DNA of 64,000 nucleotides from Vulcanimicrobiota bacterium. GTDB lineage: Bacteria; Vulcanimicrobiota; Xenobia; Xenobiales; JADMJV01. Made by a program: the position numbers and the translations under genes. The stretch is from contig JAHBVR010000013.1 in NCBI GenBank assembly GCA_019637395.1, positions 62,001-126,000 of the forward strand, given 5' to 3'. The notes under the pieces are model-generated. The model saw only the letters and a program-made list of their open reading frames with translations, searched no databases and was not told the origin of the DNA. This document shows positions 4,682 through 60,785 of the stretch, one piece after another (within the stretch, counting starts at the first letter, position 1; every line of letters starts with the position of its first letter).

Positions 4682-5172
4682 TCACCTGGCTGGTAGCCGG
4701 AGGGCTGGCCTTCCTGCTGGTCCCACGCCTTATTTTGCGTCTGTCCCGGGTGGGCGAACCGCCGCTGGTCGAGGGAGAGTGGCAGGTTTGCCAGTATAGC
4801 GGGGGATTGATGGGCTGCGTAAGCGTGATTGGCCTGCTGTTTCTGTTCCTGGTGGGCTTCGCCTACACCCACCCGGGGCGAACGCCAGCGGGGCAGATGC
4901 TGCCAGCCCTGGTGCTTTTTGCCTTCTTTGGAGTGATGGGTCTCTACAGCGCCTGGCAGATGGGCCGAGCGCGCATTCTCTGGAGCGATCGAGAGATCCG
5001 CTCCAGGGGAGTGATCATCCCCTGGGAGGAGCTGCAGGGTGCTAATTTTTTGCGAGCGGCCCAGGCCTTTCAACTCACCGGCGTGAACGGCCAGAAAATC
5101 TGGGTTTACCAGGCCATGAACGGATTTCCCGAACTCTGGAAAAAGGTCGAGGAGTTTCTCGCTCCTACTTGA
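4678..5172 (+). CDS. Small membrane protein with PH-like tail
   Basis: The protein has 164 residues, starting at GTG 4678, which overlaps the previous stop (GTGA). There are three hydrophobic helices: about 2-20, 45-62 (CVSVIGLLFLFLVGFAY) and 78-95 (MLPALVLFAFFGVMGLYSAW). They are followed by a soluble tail (ILWSDREIRSRGVIIPWEEL...) that resembles the 'DUF/PH-like' tails of small bacterial membrane proteins, where a strand-turn-strand precedes a Trp-Glu turn. Function unknown. It is the last gene of the FHA operon and its end overlaps the convergent gene by eight bases. Confidence 0.65.
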   Translation: MITWLVAGGLAFLLVPRLILRLSRVGEPPLVEGEWQVCQYSGGLMGCVSVIGLLFLFLVGFAYTHPGRTPAGQMLPALVLFAFFGVMGLYSAWQMGRARILWSDREIRSRGVIIPWEELQGANFLRAAQAFQLTGVNGQKIWVYQAMNGFPELWKKVEEFLAPT

Positions 5173-5740
5173 GTTCCAGCTTTTCGATGTACTCTTTGGC
5201 GGCCTTTTCGTCGAAGGGCGGCGGCGGGGCGGTGCGTTTAAAGTTGCTGGTGTAGGAGTTGTCGCCATTGCGGTTCTCGCGCAAGCGCTCGCTGGTGACG
5301 CCTTCGGGAGTGGTTTCCACGCGCTCGATGCGCTTCTCTTTGACTTTGTCGCTGGCTTTGCCCGCGCCCCAAGCAGCCAGGCCGCCGAGCAACAGTCCAC
5401 CCAGGGCGGCGCCGATGGAATCTTTCTTTTTGCCACCGAAGAGGGCGGCGCCGATCAGGGTGCCGGCGATGCCGGCGGCGACCTGAAGGCCCCGGGTATC
5501 TTCTTTGACGATCTCTTCGCGCAGCACCACGGTGGAGTTCTTGTCGGCTTTGACGGCCGTCATGGTCTTACCGTTGGCGCTGCCCTGCCAGATGTCGCCC
5601 TGCGGCTTGACCAGGGTGGTGTCACCGCTGAGCTGGACCGAATCACCTTGCGGAGCTTGTTCGATAGCTTTGCGCGCGTCGGAAGCTTCCTTGCGCAGGC
5701 GAACCGAGTTATCGCCGCCGAAAAATTTGCTGATATTCAT
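5165..5740 (-). CDS. Hypothetical protein with glycine-zipper segment
   Basis: The protein has 191 residues, starting MNISKFFGGDNSVRLRKE. The middle (about 95-140) is a Gly/Ala-rich double hydrophobic segment (VAAGIAGTLIGAALFGG and IGAALGGLLLGGLAAWG) typical of glycine-zipper hairpins that insert in or associate with membranes. It is flanked by charged N- and C-terminal regions and ends in a Lys/Glu helix. No signal peptide is seen. No named family. It lies just downstream of the XRE-type gene 5748-6890 on the same strand (seven bases apart), so the two probably share a transcript. Confidence 0.6.
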   Translation of the reverse strand: MNISKFFGGDNSVRLRKEASDARKAIEQAPQGDSVQLSGDTTLVKPQGDIWQGSANGKTMTAVKADKNSTVVLREEIVKEDTRGLQVAAGIAGTLIGAALFGGKKKDSIGAALGGLLLGGLAAWGAGKASDKVKEKRIERVETTPEGVTSERLRENRNGDNSYTSNFKRTAPPPPFDEKAAKEYIEKLELK

Positions 5741-5747
5741 AGGTGGA

Positions 5748-6890
5748 TTAGACCACGGAGCCTGAAAAAATTACTGAAAACCCGGGAGCGATCTCTTCTC
5801 GAGAGAGGACCGGCCAGCGGGGATGTTGGCGCAGCAACTGGCGGACGGGCCGGCGCAGCTCGGGACTCGTGAGGAAAAGCGGAGATTCTTGGTCCAGGCC
5901 GGCTTTTTCCAGGGATTCCTGACTGGGGAGGGCCTCGACACCGATGGCGGTGATGGTTTTTCCGGCTGCGTTCAGGTGGCTGAGCAGAGGAGCGAGGTCG
6001 GCGCGCAGGTTGCGCAGGAGAGTTTCGCGGTCAGACGGGGCGTGGTCGGCCAGGGACTCGAGAATGGCGGCCAGGTCCCGGATCGGCACCAGTTCCTTGA
6101 GTAGCTCGCGCAATACCCAGCGCAGCGTGATGAGGTCGACTTTCTGAGGAACGACTTCTTCGAGCAGGCGGCGGTGCTCGAATTTTTCCAGCCGCCTGGC
6201 CACGTCGTCCAGGCCCAGCAGGCGGTGGGCCTGAAGCTCCACCTGCAGGCGCAGATGCTGCGTGAGCAGGGCCGCCGCCGTAAAGACGGCACAGCCGGAT
6301 TCCCTGGCTCGCTCCGCTTCTTCCGCCTGGATCCAGCGAGCCGGCCGTTGCCAGCAAGGGTCGAGCAGGTCCTGGCCGGACAGCTTCCCCAGTTCGCCCT
6401 GGGAACGAGCCACGGCCAGCAGTTTGTCAGGCTCCAGGCGGCCCTCGGCAACTTTTAACTCGCGCACGAAGATACGGTAGGCTCCGTCTGGAACAGAAAG
6501 GTGATCACAGAGGCGCACACCCGGCATGATCCAGCCATACTCCTGGGCTATGTACTTGCGCAGGCCACTCAGCTTGTCTAAAAGCGGATCCAGGAACGGC
6601 TTGGGGACTTGCCCCAGCAAACTGGTGGAGAGTTCGATCTTGAGAAGATCCAACTGCAACCAGTCGCGCTGCTCGCGCTCGCGATTTGGCTGCGGCAGCG
6701 TGGCTTCCGGTTTGAGCTCGAGCTCTTCGGCCACGCGCCGGATGCTCTCCCAACTGCCCCGGCCGGCCTCCAGCCGGCGCACGGTGCGAATTCCCAGACG
6801 GGTTCGCTCGGACAGCTCTTCCTGTGTCCAGGCTCGCTTCTCACGGGCTTTGCGGACGATCTCACCGTTGACTTCGAGGTGTTTTTTCAT
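5748..6890 (-). CDS. XRE-type helix-turn-helix protein with long unknown C-terminal domain
   Basis: The protein has 380 residues. Residues 8-60 form a Cro/CI-type HTH (GEIVRKAREKRAWTQEELSE, then IRTVRRLEAGRGS), so it should bind DNA. The remaining 300 residues are Leu/Arg-rich and helical with no recognised domain; a short hydrophobic stretch near the C-terminus (PVLSREEIAPGFSVIFSGSVV) is too weak to call a membrane anchor. The start ATG 6890 gives the canonical HTH spacing. It may regulate the glycine-zipper gene lying seven bases downstream; this is inference from position only. Confidence 0.7.
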   Translation of the reverse strand: MKKHLEVNGEIVRKAREKRAWTQEELSERTRLGIRTVRRLEAGRGSWESIRRVAEELELKPEATLPQPNREREQRDWLQLDLLKIELSTSLLGQVPKPFLDPLLDKLSGLRKYIAQEYGWIMPGVRLCDHLSVPDGAYRIFVRELKVAEGRLEPDKLLAVARSQGELGKLSGQDLLDPCWQRPARWIQAEEAERARESGCAVFTAAALLTQHLRLQVELQAHRLLGLDDVARRLEKFEHRRLLEEVVPQKVDLITLRWVLRELLKELVPIRDLAAILESLADHAPSDRETLLRNLRADLAPLLSHLNAAGKTITAIGVEALPSQESLEKAGLDQESPLFLTSPELRRPVRQLLRQHPRWPVLSREEIAPGFSVIFSGSVV

Positions 6891-9828: not shown

Positions 9829-10133
9829 AAGGCTTTTTCCAGGCTGGATTGATCGGGGCGGGCCAGTTGCGCGAGCACCTTCCCATCCTGGAGGAAAACC
9901 AGGTTGGGCCAGAGCTTGACCGCGTAGGAGCGGCCCAGGGGACGGCCTTTGCCGTCCTCGACCTTCAGATGGCGCACTTGCGGATGGACCTCGAGCAGGC
10001 TGCGCAGGCCGGGTTGCACGGCCTGGCAATGAGGACACCATTCGGCTCCGAACTCCAGCACGGTAAAGCCCGCCAGGGCATCGACTTCAGCCCGCGTGGG
10101 CTCGCTGGTTGAGTAATCCGCGATATATGACAT
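9807..10133 (-). CDS. Thioredoxin-like protein
   Basis: The protein has 108 residues. It has the thioredoxin fold pattern [20 protein letters not shown] with active site WCPHC (CPxC rather than the usual CGPC, as in some glutaredoxin- and DsbA-like enzymes), then [24 protein letters not shown] with the cis-proline. No signal peptide, so cytosolic disulfide reduction is likely. ATG 10133 is chosen because GGTGGAGGAAA lies upstream; the frame extends further but without support. Confidence 0.88.
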
Positions 10134-10511: not shown

Positions 10512-10696
10512 AACCAGCAAAACAGCCTTTAACACCGCCACTACGGGCTATGCGCTTCGAGGCGTTAAAGCGGCATAAATCCGCCGACAAAGATTTTACT
10601 TTTTCACCCAACTTCCGCAACATATCGGCAACAGATGCCGCATCTTGTTACAAAACCGCACCATGCGCGGAGGCGCCCGGCGGCTATGCTAAGAGC

Positions 10697-12100
10697 ATGA
10701 TGATCGCCCAAAAACCCCATCCCGGCAATCGCCCGGTTCTCGTCAAAGAGTTCCAGGGGGATAAGCAGATCCGCTTTGAACGCGATAAAGACGGAGTGGT
10801 CACCAGCCCGGACATCAGTCCGGACGATGCCGGTTGGCTGGCGCGCAGCAAAACCAAGATCCTGAATTCCCTGGTTCCCGAGAACCTTTCGCAAAGCGTG
10901 AGTAAAGACTACGTCACCACCCGCAAGTGGCAACTGGCCCGCGATTTTCTGGGCGCTTTCGCGGGCACGGCCTCGCTGGCCGCCGTCATGACGGCGGTGG
11001 CTCCGGCCAACACGGCTCTGGCGGCGCTGAGCATCGCCGGCCTGACCGTGGCCAACGTCAACTGGTTTAAAGACAGAATGGGCCAGGTGAGCAGCATCGC
11101 CGCCACCAACATCGCGCGCATCGCGGAAAAGAATCCCCGTCCCTGGATGATGGCCAGCGATATCATTCAAAACGTGGGCACGGTAGTGGACGCAGCCACC
11201 TGCGTGCTGCCTCCCCTGGTCTATTTCCCTCTGCTGACCGGCATGGGCATCGTGCGGGCCGTGGGCGGCGCCGCCGGTGGAGCGGCCGGCGCTAACGTGG
11301 GCCCGCGCCAGGCCATCAAGGGCAATCTCGGAGAGGTTTCCGTGAAAAACGGCAACCAGGGCACTCTGGCCACCTTCGCCGGCGCCACCGCCGGAATTGC
11401 CACGCTGGGCGCCCTGGGCAGCTTTATGTCCTTCGGCTCGGCGGTGATGGCCGTGGCCGGCATCGGGGCGGTGGGCTGCCTGGTGACTTACTACAAAATG
11501 CTGCAAGCGCTTGACTATAATCCCGTCAACGAAAAGGGCATGCGCTACGTGATGGATCACATGCAGGCCAACAACGGCGAAATTCCGCCCCCGTCGCGCA
11601 ATCTGATGGGCCAGGTGGCCGGGCTGGTCAAACGCGACACGCTGGTGGCGGGCAATAAAATCAAGCCGCTGTTGGAAGACAAGAATTTCAACGCGCTGCG
11701 CGATACCTTCAAAGACCGTCCCTACATCATGAGCATTCGCGAGGGCAAACCGTATCTGGTGCTCAAACACGAAGAAGGTAGCCACGACCAGCCTCAAGTG
11801 GGGACCAAGCCGTTGCCGGAGAACAGCGACTTTATCACCAAAATGGCCCAGACCCAGGCCGTGTATCAAGGCATCATGGCCGAGCGCCTGCTGGCCTCGC
11901 CCGACTACGCCAGTAAGAAAGCCGAGGACGAGGAGGCGGCCAACCGCTGGGTCATCGACGAGAGCTTAAAGCAAACCCCCGCTGATATACGCCCCTTCCT
12001 GACCCAGATGCAGGAAGCCGGCTGGAGCGTGGATACGGTCCGCTTCTGGGGCGAAGAGCGGCCGGCCACTTTGGAGAATGCCTCGGGCTCCAAGTCCTAA
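10697..12100 (+). CDS. RUS / DUF647 (root UVB-sensitive) family-like protein
   Basis: The protein has 467 residues. ATG 10697 (or 10700) follows AAGAGC; upstream in-frame sequence looks non-coding. Residues about 60-245 follow the eukaryotic RUS (DUF647) plan: NLSQSVSKDYVTTRKWQLAR, then ANVNWFKDRMGQ matching the RUS 'W.lRD..GM' step, ASDIIQNVGTVVDAATCVLP matching 'ADvlNDvg...ll.P', GIVRAVGGAAGGA, and EVSVKNGNQGTLATF matching 'DvSaKeGSQET'. Residues 265-310 (ALDYNPVNEKGMRYVMDHMQ and EIPPPSR) match the RUS 'mntLNrqR...f...G.vPsP' segment. Several hydrophobic Gly/Ala segments suggest membrane association. In plants RUS1/2 act in UV-B response and auxin transport; no bacterial function is assumed. 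The last 150 residues are unlike RUS. Confidence 0.65.
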   Translation: MMIAQKPHPGNRPVLVKEFQGDKQIRFERDKDGVVTSPDISPDDAGWLARSKTKILNSLVPENLSQSVSKDYVTTRKWQLARDFLGAFAGTASLAAVMTAVAPANTALAALSIAGLTVANVNWFKDRMGQVSSIAATNIARIAEKNPRPWMMASDIIQNVGTVVDAATCVLPPLVYFPLLTGMGIVRAVGGAAGGAAGANVGPRQAIKGNLGEVSVKNGNQGTLATFAGATAGIATLGALGSFMSFGSAVMAVAGIGAVGCLVTYYKMLQALDYNPVNEKGMRYVMDHMQANNGEIPPPSRNLMGQVAGLVKRDTLVAGNKIKPLLEDKNFNALRDTFKDRPYIMSIREGKPYLVLKHEEGSHDQPQVGTKPLPENSDFITKMAQTQAVYQGIMAERLLASPDYASKKAEDEEAANRWVIDESLKQTPADIRPFLTQMQEAGWSVDTVRFWGEERPATLENASGSKS

Positions 12101-41674: not shown

Positions 41675-42846
41675 TCACAATACTGGCGCAGGCATCAGAA
41701 TACGCCGGTAGGCCAGCTGCTGCAGAAGCGCTAGCTGACCTTGGAGCACCTGATGTTGACGTTGCTTTTGCACTTCGACAAACAGGCTGGCAGCCTTGAA
41801 GCGGCGTTCCCTCCGTTCTAACTTGCCCTGCACCAGTTCAGGCTCAACGTCTCGGAAGGACTCGTTGCGGGTCAACATGCACCAGATAGCGGTCAGCAGT
41901 TTACGGGCACTGGCAGTGGCCGCAACCCCCTTGCCCTTGCCTTTGCGCTTGCAAAGGTTACGGTAGGGCCCGTCCACCCTGCATAGGCTCTGGGCGGCCT
42001 CGGTGAGGCCCAACGCAGCTTCTTGGAGCCAGCCTTCGTAATACTCCCGTTCCGGGATTTGCCGGCGGAAGATCGTTGTCGAGGAGATAGCCCGGCGTAG
42101 TTGACCAGGCTGCTGGCGGTGGCGAATCGGTCAATCCGGCCGATTACAGCCACAATCGTGAAGGCGGTCAGCACATTCACGCCCCGAATCGTCATAAGGA
42201 GGGCCACTTCCGGCCAACGGCCCGCTCGAACCTCGATCACCGGCTCGAGCCGGTGCAGGCGCTCTTCCAGCAGAGCCAACTCCTCCAGCTGGTTGGCCAG
42301 CACCTCCCGCGACGCCCACGGCAGGCGAGCTCTCAGCGTCAATAGGAAGCGCTGGGCGCAAGCACTGTTCACGTCCGCCCCGTCCCAGGTCAAACCGTGC
42401 TCGGCCATCTGGGCTCGGATCCGATTCTTGACCCGTGTCATGTGCTGTACGAGGCTGGTCCGGTAACTCAGGATCTCCCGGTCTTGGCGAGTCTCCTGGT
42501 CTGGCGTCCAGACCGTCCGTAGCATGCCCAAAGCCAGAAGCAATGCCAAGGAATTCGAGTCGTTTCGATCATTCTTGGCGTTCTTGCTGAAGAACTGGAG
42601 TTTACTGGGGTTGGCTACCGAGACCGAGGCGACCAGGCCGGACAAGCGATTCACGTAGTAGCAGCTTCCCCGAGTCGCTTCCAGAGCCACTTGGTCGCCT
42701 CTGCCCAGTGTGGCCAGGAACGCGGTCAGGTCCTTTTCGCGTGTGGTGATTTCATACTGCTCGACAGTGCCTTCCTCAATGGACAGCTCCGTCACATAAA
42801 TACGGTCCCGGTGAATATCGAGCCCGTAATACTTGGGTTTCTTCAT
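41675..42846 (-). pseudogene. Frameshifted IS110-family transposase
   Basis: The reading frame from ATG 42846 has the N-terminal DEDD RuvC-like domain (GLDIHRDRIYVTELS, LEATRGS, KNDRNDSNSLALL) and the C-terminal Tnp20-like domain (MTIRGVNVLTAFTIVAVIGR, NYAGLSPRQRSSAGKSRNGS). It then loses frame near 42010 after KAGSKKLRW. The expected continuation (GLTEAAQSLCRVDGPYRNLC through LTAIWCMLTRNESFRD) resumes one frame away, to 41675. The sequence TGGGCCTCACC looks like loss of one base. Combined length near 390 residues suits IS110. The break truncates the protein before its last conserved helices, so it is probably inactive. GGAGACG precedes the ATG. Confidence 0.85.
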
Positions 42847-42983
42847 CTCGTCTCCATTCGGATTCCCCTGACATCATCGGCAATCATTTCTTCGAGCGCT
42901 TGCTCTCGCAGCAACGCTCCGGCCGGATGCGCGCCTTCAGCGATGTCTTGGGCCAATTCAAAAAATCGGTCTGTAAAACCCAT
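42843..42983 (-). CDS. 46-residue ORF overlapping the IS110 transposase start
   Basis: ATG at 42981-42983 runs to TGA 42843-42845, which overlaps the transposase ATG (ATGA). Product begins MGFTDRFFELAQDIAEGAHP, continues AGALLREQALEEMIADDVRG and ends IRMETR: acidic, amphipathic, predicted helical. No match is known to me. The exact ATGA coupling and good composition support it. IS110 ends usually carry non-coding bridge-RNA sequence upstream of the transposase, so a coding frame here is unusual. Confidence 0.45.
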   Translation of the reverse strand: MGFTDRFFELAQDIAEGAHPAGALLREQALEEMIADDVRGIRMETR

Positions 42984-43260
42984 TGCTGGTCCGGCCTCTC
43001 GGGATACTCATCCGACCGCCGGCTCTTTGAGACTATGAAGGAACTTCAACGTCTTGAGCTAGAAAATCTGGCGAAGACCACTTATGCTATACCTGCCTGG
43101 TCAATAACTCCCTATTTCTGAGTGAAAGCCGGGCTTTTTCGCGTCCGCACGAGGTTGGGTTCGGCGGTCCCTCCTGAGCCAGTCCTTCGTAAGAGTCAAA
43201 ACAAGCATTTGGGCAGAACCGACCGTCGAACGGATCGGCCGCCGGGCCGAGAATACCGGG
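42984..43260. other. Non-coding gap between the two IS110-type genes
   Basis: About 280 bp. It would include the upstream end of the first element and the downstream end of the second. Short plus-strand frames exist but have no ribosome site. IS110 elements have no simple terminal inverted repeats, and I could not locate the boundaries. Confidence 0.4.
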
Positions 43261-44316
43261 CTACTCCGTTTCGGCGGCTTTCGGTTCTCTTTTCTTGCGG
43301 TCCAATCGCTTGAGTTTCAGAGCGTGGCGCTCCTCGCGACCCTTGTAGGGAACATTTCGCGTCCAGACATGCCACACGGCAACCAGTAGTCTGCGCGCGC
43401 ACGCCGTCATGGCCACCGCCTTAGGCCGCCGCTCGGCGAGCCTCTCCTTAAATTGCTTGACTGAATCGTCCACCCGACTGGCGCTCATGGCTGCCAGACC
43501 CATAGCCCAACGGAGACTGCGGCGGCCAGCCTTGGTGATGCCGCCACTGCGATGACTCTGACCCGACGAATGCACTCGGGGAACCAGTCCTGCATAGGCG
43601 CAGAGTTTGCCGGGGGAACTGAAGCGTTTGATATCCCCAACCTGAGCGACAATGCAAGCGGCCACCAACGTCCCAACGCCGGGAATCGACATCAGAAGCC
43701 GGGCGTCTTTCGAGCCGCGGCACCACTCGTGGAAGATGGCATCGAGGCGGGCACTCTCTTCCTCAAAGGCAGCTCCCAGACGAAACAGGGCGCTGCAAAA
43801 TTCTTGCATCGTGCTGTCGCTCGGGATTGCCGCCTTGAGGTCCGTCTCTTTGAGTTTGCCTTCGGGAGCCAGTTCCTGGCGCGATAGTGCCCGCAATCGG
43901 TTATTGGCGCCGACACGAAAGCGAGCGAGCTTCACGCGAAGTTCGATAAGATTGCGCAAGGAGCGGATCTCTTGGGGCGGCACCCAAACGGCACGAACAA
44001 AATCAGATGCGAGGAGGCGGGCCAGCGCTTCGGCCGAGCTGCGGTCTGTGGTGGCCGCTCCTGACGAGGCGCCCCGCGTCTGGGCGGGATCAGCCACCAC
44101 GAGTTTGCCCACGTGTGGACGGAGCTCATCCGCCAGGCGGAAACTATTGGTGGAAGCTTCCATCACCAACTGAACCGTCGAATCGAGTCGTTCCTTGAAC
44201 TTCGCTAGACCACCAGGAATGGCCACGCGGTATTCTTGCTTTTGTCCCTCCCGTAACTCCACCACATAAGCGTAAGATTTGTGTGCATCAAAACCGATAA
44301 TCGGGCCACCGTTCAC
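43261..44316 (-). mobile_element. IS110-family insertion sequence, transposase intact
   Basis: The transposase has 351 residues from GTG 44316. DEDD residues are seen in IIGFDAHKSYAYVVE, VMEASTNSF and TTDRSSAEALARLL; the C-terminal domain has LMSIPGVGTLVAACIVAQVG, CAYAGLVPRVHSSGQSHRSG and GITKAGRRSLRWAMGLAAM with the catalytic Ser region. It is a different subgroup from the frameshifted copy next door. It would use a bridge RNA encoded in its non-coding end to select target sites; the 44317-44500 region is the candidate. It is intact over its whole length. Confidence 0.88.
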
Positions 44317-44647
44317 CTCCAGAATTCGTAAGCCGAGGGTGCGATATCCATTTCTCGCGCTCCAGGGCGCAGACTGGTCAGTTCAGCGCAGAGAGGCCAG
44401 GGGTTCTAACGAGCTTACAGCTGATAGCTCAAGTTTACTGGGGGCCGCTCCCACTCAACCACGGCCGCAGTGAGTCAAGACAATGAGTTCAACCAAGCCA
44501 TCGGCCTCAGAGGCCATTGGGCACACGTTCTCGTTGCCGAGGGGTCACTGCTGACCGCCTGGGGCAACATACCAGCAAGCCAAATCAACACTGGGGAGCC
44601 AGGCGAAAGCTTTAAAGGGGCGGAGTGCTACACGGAAGCGGAGTGCC

Positions 44648-44684
44648 AGCCCGGCCCCGGAACTGACGTTCCGGGGGCCGGGCT
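44648..44684. repeat. Strong GC-rich inverted repeat
   Basis: Arms 44648-44663 (AGCCCGGCCCCGGAAC) and 44668-44684 pair over about 16 bp with a single bulged G and a TGAC loop. There is no T-tract on the plus strand and no gene edge nearby, so its role is unclear. Confidence 0.7.
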
Positions 44685-44701
44685 GTCGGTGGGCGATAGC
44701 G

Positions 44702-44810
44702 GAGAGGCTGGCGCAAGCGCCAGAACAAAGAAAAAGCGGGCTCGCGGGCCCGCTTAAAGATCGGCTTGGTTGAAAGACTTCCGGTATTTCGACCCGGCGG
44801 CCGAGGGTTC
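44702..44810. repeat. Terminator-containing repeat, copy 1 (copy 2 at 53686-53793)
   Basis: About 108 bp shared with 53686-53793: GAGAGGCTGGCGCAAGCGCC, then an A-rich stretch and GCGGGC...GCCCGC stem, then TTAAAGATCG...GAAAGAC...ATTTCGAC. The first 39 bases are identical and the rest diverges moderately. Both copies lie directly downstream (minus strand) of an Rhs immunity gene, so the repeat travels with the toxin-immunity module. Confidence 0.85.
44730..44755 (-). terminator. Rho-independent terminator of the orphan immunity gene
   Basis: On the minus strand AAGCGGGC (44748-44755) pairs with GCCCGCTT (44734-44741) and is followed by TTTCTTTG. It lies 140 bp after the putative immunity gene stop (44893). 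An identical-type terminator ends the second copy at 53711-53739. Confidence 0.8.
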
Positions 44811-44840
44811 GTGGTTGGGGCTCACGCCCCAACCACGAAC
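44807..44840. repeat. Perfect 15-bp hairpin
   Basis: GTTCGTGGTTGGGGC (44807-44821) and its exact complement (44826-44840) flank a TCAC loop. It touches the end of the terminator repeat, 53 bp from the immunity gene stop. It is not present at the 53.8-kb copy. Confidence 0.75.
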
Positions 44841-44892
44841 TCACAGCATACTCCCCCAAGCTGAGAACCGAGCCTGGTCGGTACTATTAAAG

Positions 44893-45486: not shown

Positions 45487-46671
45487 CTATTTTCTAGGCA
45501 CTCGGCGAATGCCGTGGTCAAGGTCGATCTCAGGAGCAGGATTATCAGACGGATATTCGGGTGGAAACCATTGATCATAGTCCGGTTCTTCATACTCTCC
45601 GCAAGTGTAGCAGCTTTTAAGCCTGTCGCCACCGCAAAAACCTTTACACCATGATTCAATTGATTGCCCCCGAGGAGCACTCTTCTTACGCCTCATGCAG
45701 ACCTCCACGCAATCGTCAAAAGCGGCGTTGCAGCGGAACAAATAGAGCAGGCTTGTGCCAGCTTTCTTCAAGCTATCGAGCCAACTGCCTCCACTCTTGC
45801 CAGAGCTTTGAGATTGATCGCTACCACCCGTGCTCGCTCTTTCGCGGTTCGGGCGAGGCAACCAGTCCGGCACCGGCCGGCCCATCGAGTCGAGCCAGTT
45901 AGAATATCCTTGTAGACTTCCGGTCATCATCTCCCTTTCAGTGAAGAAATCTGACTCAGTTTGCGGCGGTCCGTAAGGCCAAACTCCGCTGCCAGGAGAG
46001 TTCGGAGGAGCGACTGCCTGATTAGGGCTGTAGCCGGCAGGCCGAGTGCTAGAGGCGGGTATTCCCGCTCCTCGTGAGGGGATTGTAGAGGGTTGATAGC
46101 TTGGACGGGGGATGGGTTCAAGCCCGAATGGGTCGATTCTTATGCTGGGATTGTTCAAGGCATACGAGTAGAGGTTTACTCCACCGCCAAATCCGATCGG
46201 ATCTCTCGAAATGAACCGTCGTAAGGTCGGATCATACCAGCGCTGGCACATGTAGAGCAGAGAGCCGATGGGCTCTATACGGCAGCCGGCTGCGCCGACA
46301 AACCCATACTGGAAGCCACCAGACACATTGTCGAAACTAGCATCGAGTTGATTACCCCAGGCATCGAATTCTCTACGCAGAACGACGTCGCCATTTTCAT
46401 CGGTCACCATTTTAATGGACATCACGTGGTCAGTGTGAACGTCATACCGACCACCGTCCCGGATGAAGCTCATTAGTTGCCCTCCAGGAACGCAGTAGGT
46501 AGTCGTTGAGATGCCCGTTGTTTCGCGTACAACCCTCCATCCATCCCAGACGAAGGTGGTCACATCCGAACCATCGTCTCGGCTCATCATTCTGCCGGCC
46601 CAATCGTAGCTGTAGGCCACATCAACGCTTCCAGGCCCCTGCACACGGACCAACCGGTTCTCATCGTTCAA
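45487..46671 (-). pseudogene. Orphan Rhs C-terminal fragment with its own toxin-like tip
   Basis: The fragment has 394 residues and no Rhs N-terminus. Residues 1-186 are the end of an Rhs core (ENRLVRVQGPGSVDVAYSYD through RWYDPTLRRFISRDP to RIDPFGLEP, the usual core/tip boundary). They align closely with the end of the 2202-residue Rhs gene (boundary DPYGLEP). The 208-residue tip differs completely: Pro/Ser-rich, then Cys-rich (CNAAFDDCVEVCMRRKK, WCKGFCGGDRLKSCYTCGEY). It starts exactly where homology with the full Rhs begins (about 46669), next to the recombinase gene. Without an N-terminus it cannot be delivered; it may still be expressed or recombine back. Confidence 0.85.
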
Positions 46672-53045: not shown

Positions 53046-53350
53046 TCTGGTCCCATCTCGCCCGTCTGGACCTGCGTAGCCTCGGCGAACGCATTCGCCA
53101 GGACTCTCCGGACAATGCCCGCCGCTTCCTTAAGAAGCTGCGTGACGCGGCGGCCACCCTGGGCAACTTCCCAGAAAAGCTCTCGGTCGTTCCGGAGCTG
53201 GGCCTGCCTTATCGCGAACGCCTGGTGGGCCGATATCGCATCATTTACCGAGTGCAGGAAGACCAGGTCATTGTTCTGGCCGTCGAGCACAGCGCCAGAG
53301 ATCTGCTCGGCGCCATCGGCCACCGCTTCCAGGAAGAAGAATCCCCTTAG
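53024..53350 (+). CDS. RelE/ParE-family toxin
   Basis: The protein has 108 residues from GTG 53024. HSVIWSHLARLDLRSLGERI, RRFLKKLRDAAATLGNFPEK and GLPYRERLVGRYRIIYRVQE with a C-terminal VIVLAVEHSARDL are the usual RelE/ParE plan (basic helices, then a beta-sheet ending in an aliphatic strand). Relatives either cleave mRNA on ribosomes or poison gyrase; sequence does not decide which. A 40-bp palindrome follows within three bases. Confidence 0.8.
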   Translation: MDPRHSVIWSHLARLDLRSLGERIRQDSPDNARRFLKKLRDAAATLGNFPEKLSVVPELGLPYRERLVGRYRIIYRVQEDQVIVLAVEHSARDLLGAIGHRFQEEESP

Positions 53351-53352
53351 CG

Positions 53353-53392
53353 TTCGTCACTTCCGGCCGCCAGGCCGGAGAGAAGTGACGAA
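53353..53392. repeat. Long inverted repeat after the toxin gene
   Basis: TTCGTCACTT (53353-53362) is complementary to AAGTGACGAA (53383-53392), and inside it CCGGCC pairs with GGCCGG (53363-53368 / 53373-53378). No T-tract follows, so it is not a clear terminator. It could be a recombinase target or mRNA-stabilising hairpin. Confidence 0.7.
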
Positions 53393-53685
53393 CCCCGGCC
53401 GTCGGGCCGCATACCGCGCGCCACCTGCAACCACCGGCGCACCGCGCAGCTGGCCGGCGCCAAGCAAACCATGCCTGAAGGTGCGGAGAACGCCGTCGTC
53501 CAGGTCTGCCCGTCCCGTTCGCGCTGGCTGAGGTCCCGGCTCGCGCTGGGCTGCCGGCGTTGGCCTCGTGCCCCAGGTTCTGGGACGCCCGCCACCGCGG
53601 CCCCGGGGCGGTTTCTGTGCACCAGGTCGACGGCCTGGCGGGGCGGCGTTGGCGGGGGGGCCGGGCCGAATCTTGGGCGCTTGCT
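53393..53685. other. GC-rich non-coding stretch
   Basis: About 290 bp between the palindrome and the terminator repeat. Frames on both strands are Arg/Pro/Gly-rich and have no ribosome sites. GGGGGGCCGGGCC (53654-53666) resembles part of the hairpin near 44.67 kb, so a weak version of the same flank may extend here. Nothing else supportable. Confidence 0.4.
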
Positions 53686-53793
53686 GAGAGGCTGGCGCAA
53701 GCGCCAGAACAAAGAAAAAGCGGGCCTTGCGGCCCGCTTAAAGATCGTCTGGCTGAAAGACCTCCAGCATTTCGACTCGGCAACGAGGGGTCG
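53686..53793 (-). repeat. Terminator-containing repeat, copy 2
   Basis: Homologous to 44702-44810. The stem GCGGGCC / GGCCCGC around 53720-53737 with the T-rich minus-strand tail (TTTTTCTTTG, 53711-53720) forms the terminator of the Rhs operon, about 35 bp after the immunity stop. A second stem, CTGGCGCAAGCGCCAG, precedes it on the plus strand. Confidence 0.85.
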
Positions 53794-53827
53794 GCGGTTG
53801 ATCTCCTCACCAGCCACAAACTAGACG

Positions 53828-54148: not shown

Positions 54149-57100
54149 TCAACCCCAATGCTCGGACTCGCGCCATTGCCAGTTCCAGCTTTTACATCTG
54201 CATTGACAATGCCTCGTATACCAACGTCCCTCTGGCATTTGGATAGAACCTTTCGAGCTTTCACATAGTACGCGAGTCGTAAAATCGCCAGTGGCGTATA
54301 AACCATACAATTGTTGGGCTTGACGGTTGTCGGGGCACTTACTTTTTTTGTCCTTAATCGGAATGACGTAACACTTAGCCTGGCAGGAATCACTAGAACC
54401 TGTTCCTGGATCGGGTCCGAGATGCGGTTCACGTTTGGGCTGCTTCTTCGGAGTTTCCTTTGGAGGAGTTACTGGAGTGGGATCTGGCTTCTTTTTGCCC
54501 ATGCTCCATAGGATGATTCCCGCCTTCATAACGATATTGGCACTTCCCCGTTGTACTCTTCGCCATCCGTCAGTCGCGACAATCCCTCCCGCGACGTCAG
54601 CAGGCCCAGGAACAGGGCTGTCTGCCTGAGTAATTGCTGCCCCGGCCGGAATCTCCACGCCTCCCAAGATCAGGTCGCCCAAATCTTGCAACAACGTAGT
54701 GCCCACAGGCTCAAGCCCATAGGGGTCTATCAATGACAAAGGAGTGCCGGCTGCATAACAATACAGATTTGCGCCGCCTTGGATGCCGAATGGATCGCGA
54801 CTAATAAAAGACTGGAGGGTTGGATCATACCATCGTTTTCGCATGTAGAATAGTCCACTATCGTCGTCAAATCTAACGCCGAGGGAGCCAACCCAAGAAT
54901 ACCGCATCCCTCCGGGCACATTATCGAAGCTGGAAGCCAACTGGTTGCCCCAAGCATCGAACTCTTTGCGCAGGACGACATCGCCATTGTCGTCCGTCAC
55001 AAGGCGGACCGAACCCAGGGCATCCGTGTGGACATCAAACCGGTCGCCGTCCCGAATGAAGCTCGTCAGAACGCCTTCCGGAGTGCAGTAAGTGGTCGTC
55101 GACAAACCGGTCGTCTCGCGGATGCAGTCAAATCCATCCCATAAGAACGTGGTAACATCCGTGCCATCGTCCCGACTCAACATCCGCCCGAGCATGTCGT
55201 AGCTATACGCGACATCCACGCTCCCCGGCCCCTGCACACGGACCAACCGGTTCTCATCGTTCCAGGTATAGGTCCACGTGTCCACACCGTTGGTCTTACC
55301 CGTCATGTTTCCGTTGTCATCGTAGCTAAAGGTCCAGGTATCACCACCTACATCCTGCCGCATGACCTGATTCAACGAATTCACGCGCTCTTCAGGATCC
55401 CAGCCGTCGTCGTCGCGGACGTCTTCAGAGACGCCGTTATCGTCTATAGTCGTGATCTTCAGGATATTTCCGGCTTCGTCGAAACGATACCTGCGGACCC
55501 GCGAACCGGTATCGCTACCGGCGTTGCAGGTCAGCTGGATGTCCGACAGCGTGGGCGTGTCCGTCCCGTTTCCGGTCAGCACCGCCCGCACCATCGCATA
55601 CCGGCCCGTTTTGCCCGAGGGCAGCGCCTCGCCGGTGGGCGTGGTAAACTTGCCACCGCCTGAGGGCCCGAACCAGGCCGGAGGACTCACAAAGTCCTCG
55701 AACTCGGCGTAGTCGTCGGCCACGCAGACCTCCAGCTCCACGTCGCAGCCGGTGGGCAGGTCCTCCGCCCAGGAGAGCCTATCCCAACTTACGATACGAC
55801 CCGCGTCATAGATACCCGAGGTATAGATGCCCGAGGTGGCCAGGGCATTGCCGCTCACCCGTTGGAGGTTGCTCAACCGGATGGTTCCGGTATTCCGCTC
55901 GGCGCCAAGACTGAGGTAGACATACAGATCGTCAGTTCGCACCGGGGAATGAGTATACATGCTGGTCCAGGTGGACGCTCCCTGCGCCCGGTAGTAGGCC
56001 GCCAGGCTCGACCCCGTGCGAGCCAATCGAATTTGTCCTTCGGCCGGCCTGCTATAGCTTCCCGTATTATACACATACTCCCGATGGGCAGTGAATACGA
56101 TGTAGCTGTAGACGCCTTTCACCAGGTCGATGCTGTAGAACATGTCCGTGCTGGTGGCCGGATCCATCGGCAAACGCGGGCAAACCGCCAGCCGGGTTAC
56201 GAAGTTGTATCCCGAGGAGCCTGTGAGATCCTGATAGTCCAGGGAGATGTCAAAATCGCCGCTCAGCTTTTCCGCGTGGCGTATATCAAGGGCCCACGGT
56301 CTCCCGTCCACCTGCTCCGGGTAGGCAGAGGTGGTGTAATCACCATATTGAAAATTACATTCTGAGCCCACCGAATTGTCCACAGGCGCTCGGTGCACAA
56401 AGCTCTGGTTGTGCATGGCCCTGGGATAGGTAAAACGCAGACCATTCTTCTGGCGCAACTCCATGCCCACCGCATTCAGCTCGCTCCAGTCAGACCAATC
56501 CTGTGGACGCTGGCGGCTATCCACGGTCCAACGCTGCAGATTCAGCTCCGTCCCCGAGAAGTCATCCGCGAAGGGAAGGAGTTTCATGGTCTGGGCGCTC
56601 TCGTCAAAGTCCAACCGCTCCCACTCACCCTGCTTCCAAATGGCGGGGTGATGGATGCAGAATCGATTGTGGCTTTCTTCCACCAGGCGTCCGGCTGCGT
56701 CGGTGAGGTAGGTGAAGGTATCCAGGTCCGTCTGCTGGGCAATGCGATCGCCGGCCAGGCTATAGCCGTAGTGCATTTCCATCAGAGTTTCGCTGCCCTC
56801 CACTCGCTTGCTGAGCAGCTTGCCCACGATGTCATAGTCCATCAGGTCGCTCAAGGAGTTGTTGTGGTCGATGCGTTGGCAGCGGCCGTCGATATCGTAG
56901 CTCATCTGGGTGGCATCGGAATTCACGTCCTCCACCACCAGTAGCCGGCCCACCTCGTCGCGCCCATTGCTGGGCACCGTCCAGATCGGGTCCCCGCCTC
57001 CGTAGGAGGAAGCCCCGAAGCGGGACAAACCATACAGGGAGCTGGACTCTCGTAGAGCCAGGCGCTGGCCGGTCTCGTTGTATTCCGACTTCAAGGCCAC

Positions 57101-60100
57101 CTGGTCGGTGTATTGTTGGCCGACCAGACGATTCAAAGCATCGTAGTGGTAGCTCCAGCCCTGGCTGTCCCTCTCCACCGTCGAAAGCAGGTTCCCCACC
57201 TTGTCGTAGCTTAGAGCCACGGTGGTTGTGTCTGCATAAGTGATGAGATCCAGGCGATGCAACTCGTCGTAATGATAGCTCCGCTCCTGGGACAGGTTGT
57301 CCTCGTAATGAACCAGGTCCCCGGCCGGGCTGTAATCAAACAGCTCGGTCGTGGCATCTGGATAGGTAATGGCCTTGAGGCGATGCAGGGCATCCCACTC
57401 AAACTCGGTATCCTGGTCCACTCCCTGCGAGCGCAGGCGGAAAAGCACCAGATCCATTTTTTCGTCATATTCGAAAAAGAGCTCGTTGCCCAGGCTGTCC
57501 ACCACGCGCACGACTCGGTCCAGAGCATCAAACTCCCGCAGAATCGTGCGGCCGTCCGGGTCACGCGTCAGGAAAGCCCGGCCCAGCCGGTCATACTCGG
57601 TGCGTTGGCGGGCACCGTCGGGAAAGCAGACCTCGCGCAGATTCTCACCGTCGAATTCAAAGCAAGTGCTCAGCTTCTGCAACTGCAGATTCTTCGCCCC
57701 CAACGGCGCGCTACCCGAGGCCAACTTGAGACGAGCCGAAACCAATCCCGGACGATGCAGCGAAGACTGGATGTCACCCGGGATGTCCAGCCGGCTTGGC
57801 CCGGACGGTTCCCATTCTTCGCTGCTGGGCTCATAAGCGTCTCCCTGAATGGTGCTGGAAAGCACCGTATGCGTGGTCGCGGGGTAGTCCTTGTGCAAAC
57901 GATACTGAAATTCCATTCGCGCCGTGGTTGCCCCCACCGTATCATCTTCTTTGCGAGCCATAAATCTCGCCAGGTAACGAGCCCCAGCACTCACTGGAAT
58001 ATGCTTTTGTTCCCAAGTATGGACGGTGGAATTGACGGGAAAATAGGCCTGCCCGTTTGTTTCCATCTCCCGATTGGCGCTGGTGTTGGGGGTCCAATAG
58101 CGCGGCGGGAGTTCCCCCAGCGGGTCATCCCAGCTGTCCAGGTGGAACGGCCGGTTGTCCTGACCGCTGGGATTGAACAGGGCGTTTTTGGCCCCTTCCA
58201 CCACGATCGCATCCAGGTCGGTCTGATTCCCGTTCGGCGAGGTCACGCCCGCTATCCGTCCCAGAGAGTCGCGTGCATACACGAGTTTAGCCTGGTCGGC
58301 AGACTCGGTTTCGATCAACTGGTTGCAGGCATCGTAGGTGAAGGTTGTCGATTTCCCGCGCGCATCCGTGACCGTGGCAACCTCGCCCGAGTCTCGATAC
58401 GTCATGAAAGTCGCCTGCTCCAGGGCGTCGGTGACTTTCCACAGCCGCTGATGCTTGTAGGCAAAGGCGGTAATACGTTCTTCCTGATCCTGGCTCTGCA
58501 CCAACCGCCCGCCGGCGTCATAGGTGCGGAAGCTGTCATTTCCCAAAGCGTCCTGGACCTGCACCACTCGATTGCGTCCGTCCAGAGTAAAAATGGTGGT
58601 GCGCTCGTCCGCGTCCGTCACACTGGTCAGGTTGCCGTTCTCATCATAGGTCAGGACAGTAACCCCCTCCAGAGGGTCTTCGATACGGGTCAGATTCTTG
58701 TAGTCGTCCTCATACGAGTAGAGGGTCGGGTTGGCCTGGCCGGGCTCCAGACTGCTGGTCAGGGTACCGTCGGTTTCGTCATAGGTTCTGGTCCAGGCAT
58801 TACCCATACCGTCCACCACGCCGATCAACTGGCCGGCATCATTGTAGGCCATGCGGGTGGACCGGTTTTCGAAAGGGTCAAAAGCGATGGCCGACAAGAC
58901 GGCGTCGCCCACCACACTCAAATCTTCGTCCATATCGCCCACCTGCGTCGCGTTGTTGCCACGGGCGCGAATTTCCACCAACACATCGCCCTCGCCGGGC
59001 TGAACCGGGAAGGTCGCCCAGCAACCCCCCGCGTTGTTGGGAATGCGGAAGGCCTGGGTGCCGATCGAGTCGGTCACCAACATTTCCACGTCATAGCCCC
59101 ACTGCTCCTGATAGGTGAGAGGGAGGACCGCAAAAGGTTTCAGGTTCGTTGCGCAGGTATACAGAGAAAGGTTGAAGTTCGTTTCCGTTTCCATTTCCAG
59201 GGTGAACTGGAAGCGCCGGTAGGGAATATCTTCTTCATCCAAGGCCGAGGTCCAATACCCGACCGTCGACTTCAGCGAATCTCCATCCAAATAGCGCAGG
59301 TTCCGCGGATCGCGCACATTGTAAGTGTCGGGAGAGCCGACCGGAAGTAAGATAGCCTTGGTCACCGGCTCCACCTCGCCGGTTCCCTTGGTTAGCGCCG
59401 AAATGTAAGCCGGCAGCGAGGCCACATCCGCGCTCCCGGTGGCGCCACAGATCAAGTGCCCGTGGCGGCCATAATGTCCCTGCCACTCGCCCTGTACGGA
59501 GAAATTGGCCCGGCCCGGCGTAACCGCCACCAACCGGTCATCCAGATATTCATAATGAGTCATCAGACCATTACCATCCAGTGAAAGCAGCATATTTCCT
59601 CGCAGGTCGTAGCTGTATCGGCGAAACCGCATGTTCGCCTGATCGCGAATACCCATGTAAGCATTGCTGCCGGCTCCATAATTCCAGGGGTCAAAGTTCA
59701 AGTGCCCGGCGGCCTCATAGAGGAGCTGGGATTGAGGACTCCAGAAAAACCGGCGCTGATGCCCACCGGGATCCATGATGCGGCGCAAGTTGCCGGCCAG
59801 GTCAAAGACGAACTGCCAGTCCTCATCGTTGGCATCGTTGAGGGTGGTCAGACGGAAATACGTCAGCGGCTGGAGGACTTCCGGACCGGAAGTATGCTCC
59901 TGGTAGGTTTCGGAATAGCTATAGGTCAGGGTCACATTGCGGGAATCGGTCACCGTCAGCAGTTCACCCGATTCTCCGAAGGTGTAAGCCCAGCTCTGGT
60001 CGACCAGGGGAAGCTCTTCCGGGTCACGAGGCACCGGATCGATCCGTTCGGTAATCAGGTGGTCCTCAGGGTCGTTGTAGCCGAAAGTGGTCACACAACC

Positions 60101-60757
60101 CTCAGGACCTTCCAGTTGTTCCAGATTGCCCTCTTCATCCAGGTGGAGCACCCAAGCGTGGCTGCGCGGATCGGTGATGGTCACGGTGTCGGTGCCGTAG
60201 GCAAAAAGGATGGTGCGGCCTACGGTCACACCGATGGCGTTCTCCTCCACCTGAGTCAGCTGGCCACCGCCGTTATAGGTTAACTCCAGAGAATTACCGA
60301 TGGTGTCCAAACACCGCAGCATCCGACCCGTGTCGTCGAACTGAAAGACGGCGCCGTCAGGATAGTAGCTGAGCTGCCATTCGTCACCGGGTAGAGAGGT
60401 GAGCGTGAGCTGCTCAAAGAGACCTTCGTCCAGATCAAGCCGCCAGTTGCCGCCGTCGTCCAGGAAGGTAAAACGCCGTCCGCTATGGTCTACGAAGACC
60501 GGGGCCGTTGAACTCGGCTCGATGCGAGCCTGGTAGTTGTGAGTCCAGCCGTAGCCGAACCCGCACGTATTCTCGACCGCTCGACTGTTGTAGACCAGCG
60601 TGAAAGCCAGAGAAGGTCCGATGGTGGGAACGGAAATGAGATTCATGGTGCGCACGAGGTTCCCGGTTTCGAGTCGCACTTTTTCACTCAGGGCGCAGCC
60701 CTGGAAGAGAGTTTGGTAGCCGTCCACGCCGGCCGATTGAGGAAATAATGGATTCAT
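54149..60757 (-). CDS. Full-length Rhs/YD-repeat polymorphic toxin
   Basis: The protein has 2202 residues. ATG 60757 has TTGGAG about 10 bases upstream. A short N-terminus (no PAAR, no signal peptide) leads to DUF6531-like segments (GNLVRTMNLISVPTIGPSLA) and tens of YD repeats (for example LSYDKVGNLLSTVERDSQGW, YDALNRLVGQQY). A lectin/LamG-like insert lies at about 1390-1640 (DDFSGTELNLQRWTVDSRQR; FDISLDYQDLTGSSGYNFVT). The core ends with RWYDPTLQSFISRDPFG and DPYGLEP (about 2018). The tip of 183 residues is unlike the orphan one: a Lys/Pro linker, then Cys-rich CQAKCYVIPIKDKKSKCPDN and YTRHCQCRCKSWNW. Toxin activity unknown. No VgrG or T6SS gene is nearby. Confidence 0.92.
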   Translation of the reverse strand: MNPLFPQSAGVDGYQTLFQGCALSEKVRLETGNLVRTMNLISVPTIGPSLAFTLVYNSRAVENTCGFGYGWTHNYQARIEPSSTAPVFVDHSGRRFTFLDDGGNWRLDLDEGLFEQLTLTSLPGDEWQLSYYPDGAVFQFDDTGRMLRCLDTIGNSLELTYNGGGQLTQVEENAIGVTVGRTILFAYGTDTVTITDPRSHAWVLHLDEEGNLEQLEGPEGCVTTFGYNDPEDHLITERIDPVPRDPEELPLVDQSWAYTFGESGELLTVTDSRNVTLTYSYSETYQEHTSGPEVLQPLTYFRLTTLNDANDEDWQFVFDLAGNLRRIMDPGGHQRRFFWSPQSQLLYEAAGHLNFDPWNYGAGSNAYMGIRDQANMRFRRYSYDLRGNMLLSLDGNGLMTHYEYLDDRLVAVTPGRANFSVQGEWQGHYGRHGHLICGATGSADVASLPAYISALTKGTGEVEPVTKAILLPVGSPDTYNVRDPRNLRYLDGDSLKSTVGYWTSALDEEDIPYRRFQFTLEMETETNFNLSLYTCATNLKPFAVLPLTYQEQWGYDVEMLVTDSIGTQAFRIPNNAGGCWATFPVQPGEGDVLVEIRARGNNATQVGDMDEDLSVVGDAVLSAIAFDPFENRSTRMAYNDAGQLIGVVDGMGNAWTRTYDETDGTLTSSLEPGQANPTLYSYEDDYKNLTRIEDPLEGVTVLTYDENGNLTSVTDADERTTIFTLDGRNRVVQVQDALGNDSFRTYDAGGRLVQSQDQEERITAFAYKHQRLWKVTDALEQATFMTYRDSGEVATVTDARGKSTTFTYDACNQLIETESADQAKLVYARDSLGRIAGVTSPNGNQTDLDAIVVEGAKNALFNPSGQDNRPFHLDSWDDPLGELPPRYWTPNTSANREMETNGQAYFPVNSTVHTWEQKHIPVSAGARYLARFMARKEDDTVGATTARMEFQYRLHKDYPATTHTVLSSTIQGDAYEPSSEEWEPSGPSRLDIPGDIQSSLHRPGLVSARLKLASGSAPLGAKNLQLQKLSTCFEFDGENLREVCFPDGARQRTEYDRLGRAFLTRDPDGRTILREFDALDRVVRVVDSLGNELFFEYDEKMDLVLFRLRSQGVDQDTEFEWDALHRLKAITYPDATTELFDYSPAGDLVHYEDNLSQERSYHYDELHRLDLITYADTTTVALSYDKVGNLLSTVERDSQGWSYHYDALNRLVGQQYTDQVALKSEYNETGQRLALRESSSLYGLSRFGASSYGGGDPIWTVPSNGRDEVGRLLVVEDVNSDATQMSYDIDGRCQRIDHNNSLSDLMDYDIVGKLLSKRVEGSETLMEMHYGYSLAGDRIAQQTDLDTFTYLTDAAGRLVEESHNRFCIHHPAIWKQGEWERLDFDESAQTMKLLPFADDFSGTELNLQRWTVDSRQRPQDWSDWSELNAVGMELRQKNGLRFTYPRAMHNQSFVHRAPVDNSVGSECNFQYGDYTTSAYPEQVDGRPWALDIRHAEKLSGDFDISLDYQDLTGSSGYNFVTRLAVCPRLPMDPATSTDMFYSIDLVKGVYSYIVFTAHREYVYNTGSYSRPAEGQIRLARTGSSLAAYYRAQGASTWTSMYTHSPVRTDDLYVYLSLGAERNTGTIRLSNLQRVSGNALATSGIYTSGIYDAGRIVSWDRLSWAEDLPTGCDVELEVCVADDYAEFEDFVSPPAWFGPSGGGKFTTPTGEALPSGKTGRYAMVRAVLTGNGTDTPTLSDIQLTCNAGSDTGSRVRRYRFDEAGNILKITTIDDNGVSEDVRDDDGWDPEERVNSLNQVMRQDVGGDTWTFSYDDNGNMTGKTNGVDTWTYTWNDENRLVRVQGPGSVDVAYSYDMLGRMLSRDDGTDVTTFLWDGFDCIRETTGLSTTTYCTPEGVLTSFIRDGDRFDVHTDALGSVRLVTDDNGDVVLRKEFDAWGNQLASSFDNVPGGMRYSWVGSLGVRFDDDSGLFYMRKRWYDPTLQSFISRDPFGIQGGANLYCYAAGTPLSLIDPYGLEPVGTTLLQDLGDLILGGVEIPAGAAITQADSPVPGPADVAGGIVATDGWRRVQRGSANIVMKAGIILWSMGKKKPDPTPVTPPKETPKKQPKREPHLGPDPGTGSSDSCQAKCYVIPIKDKKSKCPDNRQAQQLYGLYATGDFTTRVLCESSKGSIQMPEGRWYTRHCQCRCKSWNWQWRESEHWG

Positions 60758-60785
60758 TTTTAAATTCTCCAATTCGTTTCGTTGA

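Follow-up and report, generated by a model that had tools for sequence, protein, structure and literature searches.

A predicted bacterial RUS (DUF647) membrane protein from a multi-paralog set in an uncultured genus of Vulcanimicrobiota

The window, a stretch of 64,000 nucleotides from the genome of a Vulcanimicrobiota bacterium, carries on its forward strand an open reading frame of 467 amino acids with an uninterrupted translation. A TTG at 10109 is a mechanically possible in-frame start, and the ATG at 10697 lies approximately where close conservation with two orthologs begins. A TATGCT box and a conserved dyad precede this ATG. The gene, its upstream elements and the segments of its product are as follows:

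10630–10655, forward strand: upstream element AACAGAT-N5-ATCTTGTTACAAAA; arms kept in three species, spacer varying
10681–10696, forward strand: conserved CGGCTATGCTAAGAGC directly 5' of the ATG; identical in the window and relative L031, near-identical in L032
10697–12100, forward strand: RUS-family (DUF647) coding gene, stop codon included
10697–10852, forward strand: N-terminal tail, residues 1–52; M-x-I start, then a variable Pro/Lys/Ser-rich stretch
10853–11566, forward strand: DUF647 core (PF04884), residues 53–290; Pfam match
10940–11062, forward strand: hydrophobic block 1, residues 82–122; room for two membrane helices
11138–11140, forward strand: R148, matching AtRUS1 K281 in spacing; basic (K or R) in all 29 members
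11162–11290, forward strand: hydrophobic block 2, residues 156–198; room for two membrane helices
11189–11191, forward strand: D165, matching AtRUS1 E298 in spacing; acidic (E or D) in 15 of 29
11324–11326, forward strand: N210, matching AtRUS1 N342 in spacing; kept as N in 23 of 29 and in human RUSF1
11345–11347, forward strand: K217, matching AtRUS1 K349 in spacing; kept as K in 23 of 29 and in human RUSF1
11372–11494, forward strand: hydrophobic block 3, residues 226–266; room for two membrane helices
11849–12037, forward strand: C-terminal RUS domain (PF24160) match, residues 385–447; weak alone, E 0.025

It is possible that CGGCTATGCTAAGAGC represents a -10 box with a near-leaderless start. 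The upstream dyad was considered as a regulon motif and rejected, since it occurs only once in the genome. Both relatives show synteny with the window for the upstream neighbours (TerC, a small protein, a macro domain protein and thioredoxin) and an inversion of the downstream block. An explanation through operon partners was likewise rejected, as the gene stands alone between these two blocks. Comparison of the window gene with its two orthologs gives a dN/dS of approximately 0.08, and the gene is under purifying selection.

Elsewhere in the window, two adjoining transposase-like frames were recognised by reading at 41893–44316 (reverse strand), beside which the GC content falls locally to 54% (44–46 kb). 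A peptide of the form 'GP..PLFLCSGACASLSA' is common to the frames at 44545–44859 and 53268–53819 (both reverse strand), which suggests a repeated element flanking a 9 kb stretch. At 54149–60772 (reverse strand) lies a 2207-residue frame that on reading resembles an RHS/YD-repeat protein, and a smaller, similar-looking frame is found at 45487–46671.

The RUS landmarks named in the original prediction are all present in the translation and follow one another in the predicted order: WFKDRMGQ (residues 123–130), ASDIIQNVGTVVDA (153–166), RAVGGAAGGA (187–196), EVSVKNGNQGT (213–223), NPVNEKGMRYVM (275–286) and EIPPPSR (295–301). The DUF647 profile search that it had proposed gave 103 bits (E 2.7e-29) against a curated cut-off of 28.3 bits for PF04884, a model that carries the Pfam title 'Vitamin B6 photo-protection and homoeostasis domain'; the match covers profile positions 9–238 of 241. 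A single-sequence phmmer search of the PDB returned 9sdh_A, 'RUS family member 1' (human RUSF1), as its sole match (E 3.7e-14), and the PHROGs and PADLOC models gave no match of the window protein to phage or defence proteins. The assignment to the RUS/DUF647 family is thus borne out by the Pfam model, by the profile match to the human RUSF1 chain and by the conserved interaction residues described below. Judged from its sequence, the window protein is a genuine bacterial member of this membrane-protein family.

A profile made from an alignment of 29 bacterial RUS members matched human RUSF1 (PDB code: 9sdh, which contains two chains of RUSF1 sequence) with E 5.2e-62 over RUSF1 residues 56–467 in one collinear stretch, spanning the DUF647 core as well as the C-terminal domain. 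RUSF1 (C16orf58) is the single animal RUS protein and the orthologue of plant RUS3 (PMC8146622). The C-terminal PF24160 model is matched by 20 of the 29 bacterial members at E 0.01 or better (best 1e-18), and the window protein alone scores 15.4 bits, under the threshold of 20.7. Because the family profile is collinear with RUSF1 and most members match PF24160, the C-terminal half is best described as an ordinary RUS C-terminal domain, and the distinct C-terminal half that had been predicted is not borne out. The window protein is a taxonomically surprising member of the family with an otherwise ordinary architecture.

The human and bacterial proteins have in common the motifs SVS-x-DY and QA-x-x-NN...VSAK together with the pairing positions. 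The bacterial members differ from human RUSF1 in their N-terminal tail, which starts with a conserved M-x-I, and in forming several divergent paralogs. The member closest to RUSF1 is not the window protein; L004 and L005 score higher, with single-sequence E values of 3e-25 and 6e-25, and L003 alone gave no detectable match to RUSF1. A predicted structure of the window protein, computed from an input alignment of three close sequences, has a pLDDT of 32.8, too low for a comparison with the solved RUSF1 chain; homology to 9sdh implies a RUSF1-like fold. No functional paper on RUSF1 or on 9sdh was found in the literature searched.

Eight positions, namely the initial M, P61, Y72, R76, W78, P147, Q221 and Y343, are invariant in all 29 members. 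In Arabidopsis RUS1, residues K281, E298, N342 and K349 are needed for interaction with RUS2 (PMC10943365, citing earlier work). Their 17-44-7 spacing fits R148, D165, N210 and K217 of the window protein if one additional residue near P173 is allowed for, and the same spacing in human RUSF1 gives K, E, N and K; the equivalence is based on spacing and the human alignment rather than on the AtRUS1 sequence. Two of the four window residues are conservative replacements relative to AtRUS1, and the complete set is kept in 15 of the 29 members, the window protein included. The pairing residues are not kept by all paralogs: in some members position 217 is I or A and position 210 is A or T, and a divergent clade (L003, L026–L028) has lost the N and K of the set.

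A genome search identified three RUS paralogs in the host, and the family is present in 10 of 149 genomes of the host phylum, with up to six copies per genome. Genomes of one uncultured bacterial genus carry three to six RUS genes, and the window gene is part of such a set. Outside the phylum, no RUS match was returned from 239 genomes sampled as relatives or from about 800 genomes of other bacterial groups (with some overlap), approximately 1,000 sampled genomes in total. Rarity, rather than absence, is what these searches show, because the last four were run without a positive control of their own. Plasmid and phage collections gave no RUS match, nor did viral contigs scanned with two RUS members. 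The earlier statement that DUF647 is known mainly from eukaryotes agrees with published accounts (PMC8146622, PMC13115044) and with this very patchy bacterial distribution. Within a partial library, no report of bacterial RUS members was found in the literature, and they may sit unremarked in Pfam.

RUS proteins occur widely among eukaryotes (PMC8146622) and seldom in the sampled bacteria, a pattern that might be expected if the match came from eukaryotic DNA contaminating the assembly. That explanation is refuted by the locus itself and its relatives, and we consider it vanishingly improbable: the frame is uninterrupted, the flanking genes are bacterial with synteny kept in two other assemblies, the GC content of the gene is 61.7% versus about 60% for the window, the two closest orthologs have 88% identity and come from independently assembled genomes, and diverse RUS members occur in ten genomes of the phylum.

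In a maximum-likelihood tree the bacterial members form at least eight paralog clades, although several long branches make the deep joins unsure. Some clades join different families of the class (L023 with L024, and L009 with L012), and therefore the duplications are old or the genes have been exchanged. The plant proteins RUS1–RUS6, which have the PF04884 core in common with the bacterial members, similarly form a multigene family with evidence for pairing between paralogs (PMC8146622, PMC10943365). Plant RUS 1, 2, 4 and 6 are plastid proteins (PMC10943365), and the bacterial clades are found within one bacterial phylum. A link to the UV-B response had also been drawn in the original prediction; it holds for the two plant paralogs from which it stems, and nothing in it bears directly on the window protein.

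Family-averaged hydropathy delineates three hydrophobic blocks of about 40 residues each, with conserved polar loops between them, a layout compatible with three hairpins. A six-helix model of a plant RUS protein superposes on half of melibiose permease, a GPH-family transporter with the major facilitator fold, with a DALI Z-score of 14.7, and a dimeric transporter has been proposed (PMC10943365); CrRUS1 has been described as transporter-like with four transmembrane helices (PMC13115044). From homology and this literature we tentatively propose, at a little under an even chance, that the window gene encodes a half-transporter of six helices, dimerising with itself or with paralogs. In this RUS-family product, integral to the membrane, each hydrophobic block would fold as one helical hairpin, and the three hairpins would pack into a six-helix bundle that resembles half of a major-facilitator transporter, the arrangement reported for the plant model. 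Two halves may then meet at the conserved polar face and so complete a pathway for small solutes in the cytoplasmic membrane. These halves could be identical or different paralogs; mixed dimers are possible because there are several paralogs per genome. The C-terminal domain would serve as a regulatory or binding part. A candidate substrate, guessed from plant genetics, is a vitamin B6-type or other small anionic metabolite.

The bacterial hydrophobic layout is compatible with melibiose permease, from which RUS proteins differ in having half the helices and an extra C-terminal domain, but no convincing relationship was found between the sequence profiles. Comparison with five E. coli melibiose-permease relatives gave a probability of 8.5% (E 0.004, not significant), better than the two comparison families in the same test, which gave E 0.6 and 0.29. 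With the permease profile scoring so low, the sequences themselves do not confirm the likeness to a transporter.

The literature searched contained no demonstration of transport by any RUS protein. The same membrane protein could instead serve cytosolic enzymes such as PLP-dependent aminotransferases as a scaffold or chaperone, with the DUF647 dimer as a docking surface, and transport nothing. A protein-protein interface has been put forward as another reading of the conserved polar face (PMC10943365). In Arabidopsis, mutations in the PLP pocket of an aspartate aminotransferase suppress the rus1 and rus2 mutants, and adding vitamin B6 rescues them in part (PMC8146622). We nevertheless regard this alternative as rather unlikely, since no PLP enzyme was recognised adjoining the gene in the window or among its conserved neighbours, and three hydrophobic blocks exceed the needs of a scaffold. 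The neighbours of the other paralogs, assessed by reading and for the most part not profile-searched, also include no recurring partner.

The remaining segment of the protein is its N-terminal tail, for most of the first 50 residues outside the RUSF1 match. Of 15 clade representatives, 11 have I or V at position 3, versus 13.6% of 469 host genes (p about 2e-7; background starts called by a simple script, gene statistics from about 0.5 Mb of genome), and because the clades are related by descent this statistic measures constraint rather than independent gain. The residues that follow the start are rich in Pro, Lys, Asn, Thr, Gln and Ser and poor in Leu (P enriched 2.0-fold, L at 0.5-fold).

One possibility is that the paralogs are secreted, with the tail as a flagellar-type (type III) export signal, and work in the membrane of a partner cell, eukaryotic or bacterial. 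The conserved start would fit such a signal, as it persists while the next 30–50 residues vary, and so would the tail composition, but that composition fits any disordered tail. Unrelated proteins of the lineage have the same start, several with D-x-V-x-[LI]-[ST] at residues 27–55, and they include a homolog of the GHL10 glycosyl hydrolases without an evident signal peptide. In other proteins, however, similar tails precede apparent Sec-like signal peptides, and the tail may therefore be a cytosolic anchor and not an export signal. The genome, 97.9% complete, has two export apparatuses, with two full-length FlhA-type and two FliF-type proteins encoded, and gave no Pfam match to flagellin; the eukaryote-like family is, moreover, present in several scattered, stand-alone copies. 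Against this, multi-helix membrane proteins are hard to export by a flagellar-type route, and no chaperone gene was identified adjoining the RUS genes. We consider export improbable. An extended scenario, to which we give little credence, is that eukaryotic-type RUS half-transporters were acquired and expanded in one phylum, gained a lineage-specific N-terminal signal and reach the membranes of partner cells through a flagellar-type secretion system that lacks flagellin.

Several observations on these components were made alongside. Flagellar-type export genes read as FliI, FliJ, FlgG-like, FliP, FliR, FlhB, FlhA and FliQ lie at G000:C34:97501-113494 and on G000:C21/C23 (L058, L059, L088, L089) of the host genome, together with the two FliF-type and two full-length FlhA-type proteins. 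At 5748–6890 of the window (reverse strand) an N-terminal helix-turn-helix is fused to a cytosolic FlhA/SctV-type (FHIPEP) domain. Besides the two full-length FHIPEP proteins, the host has some 15 partial matches; most are stand-alone C-terminal FHIPEP domains, and some apparently have signal peptides. Several genomes of the phylum likewise have high FHIPEP copy numbers. Unrelated proteins with the M-x-[IVL] start are encoded at L036 3776–4870 (reverse strand), L045 9659–10678 (reverse strand), L065 10725–12383, L068 3685–5163 and window 5165–5740 (reverse strand). They have a disordered tail, often with D-x-V-x-[LI]-S, a motif found at a rate of 2.8% in residues 10–70 versus 0–0.9% further in, and these shared features may constitute a lineage-specific targeting signal. 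One protein with such a start is encoded near the flagellar-type export genes.

RUS6 is essential in Arabidopsis embryos, and in the literature searched no molecular activity was found for any RUS protein. The bacterial members that keep the pairing residues offer compact proteins for expression, structure determination and transport tests. The apparent restriction of the bacterial family to one phylum also raises a sharp question, namely the direction of transfer between this phylum and the eukaryotes.
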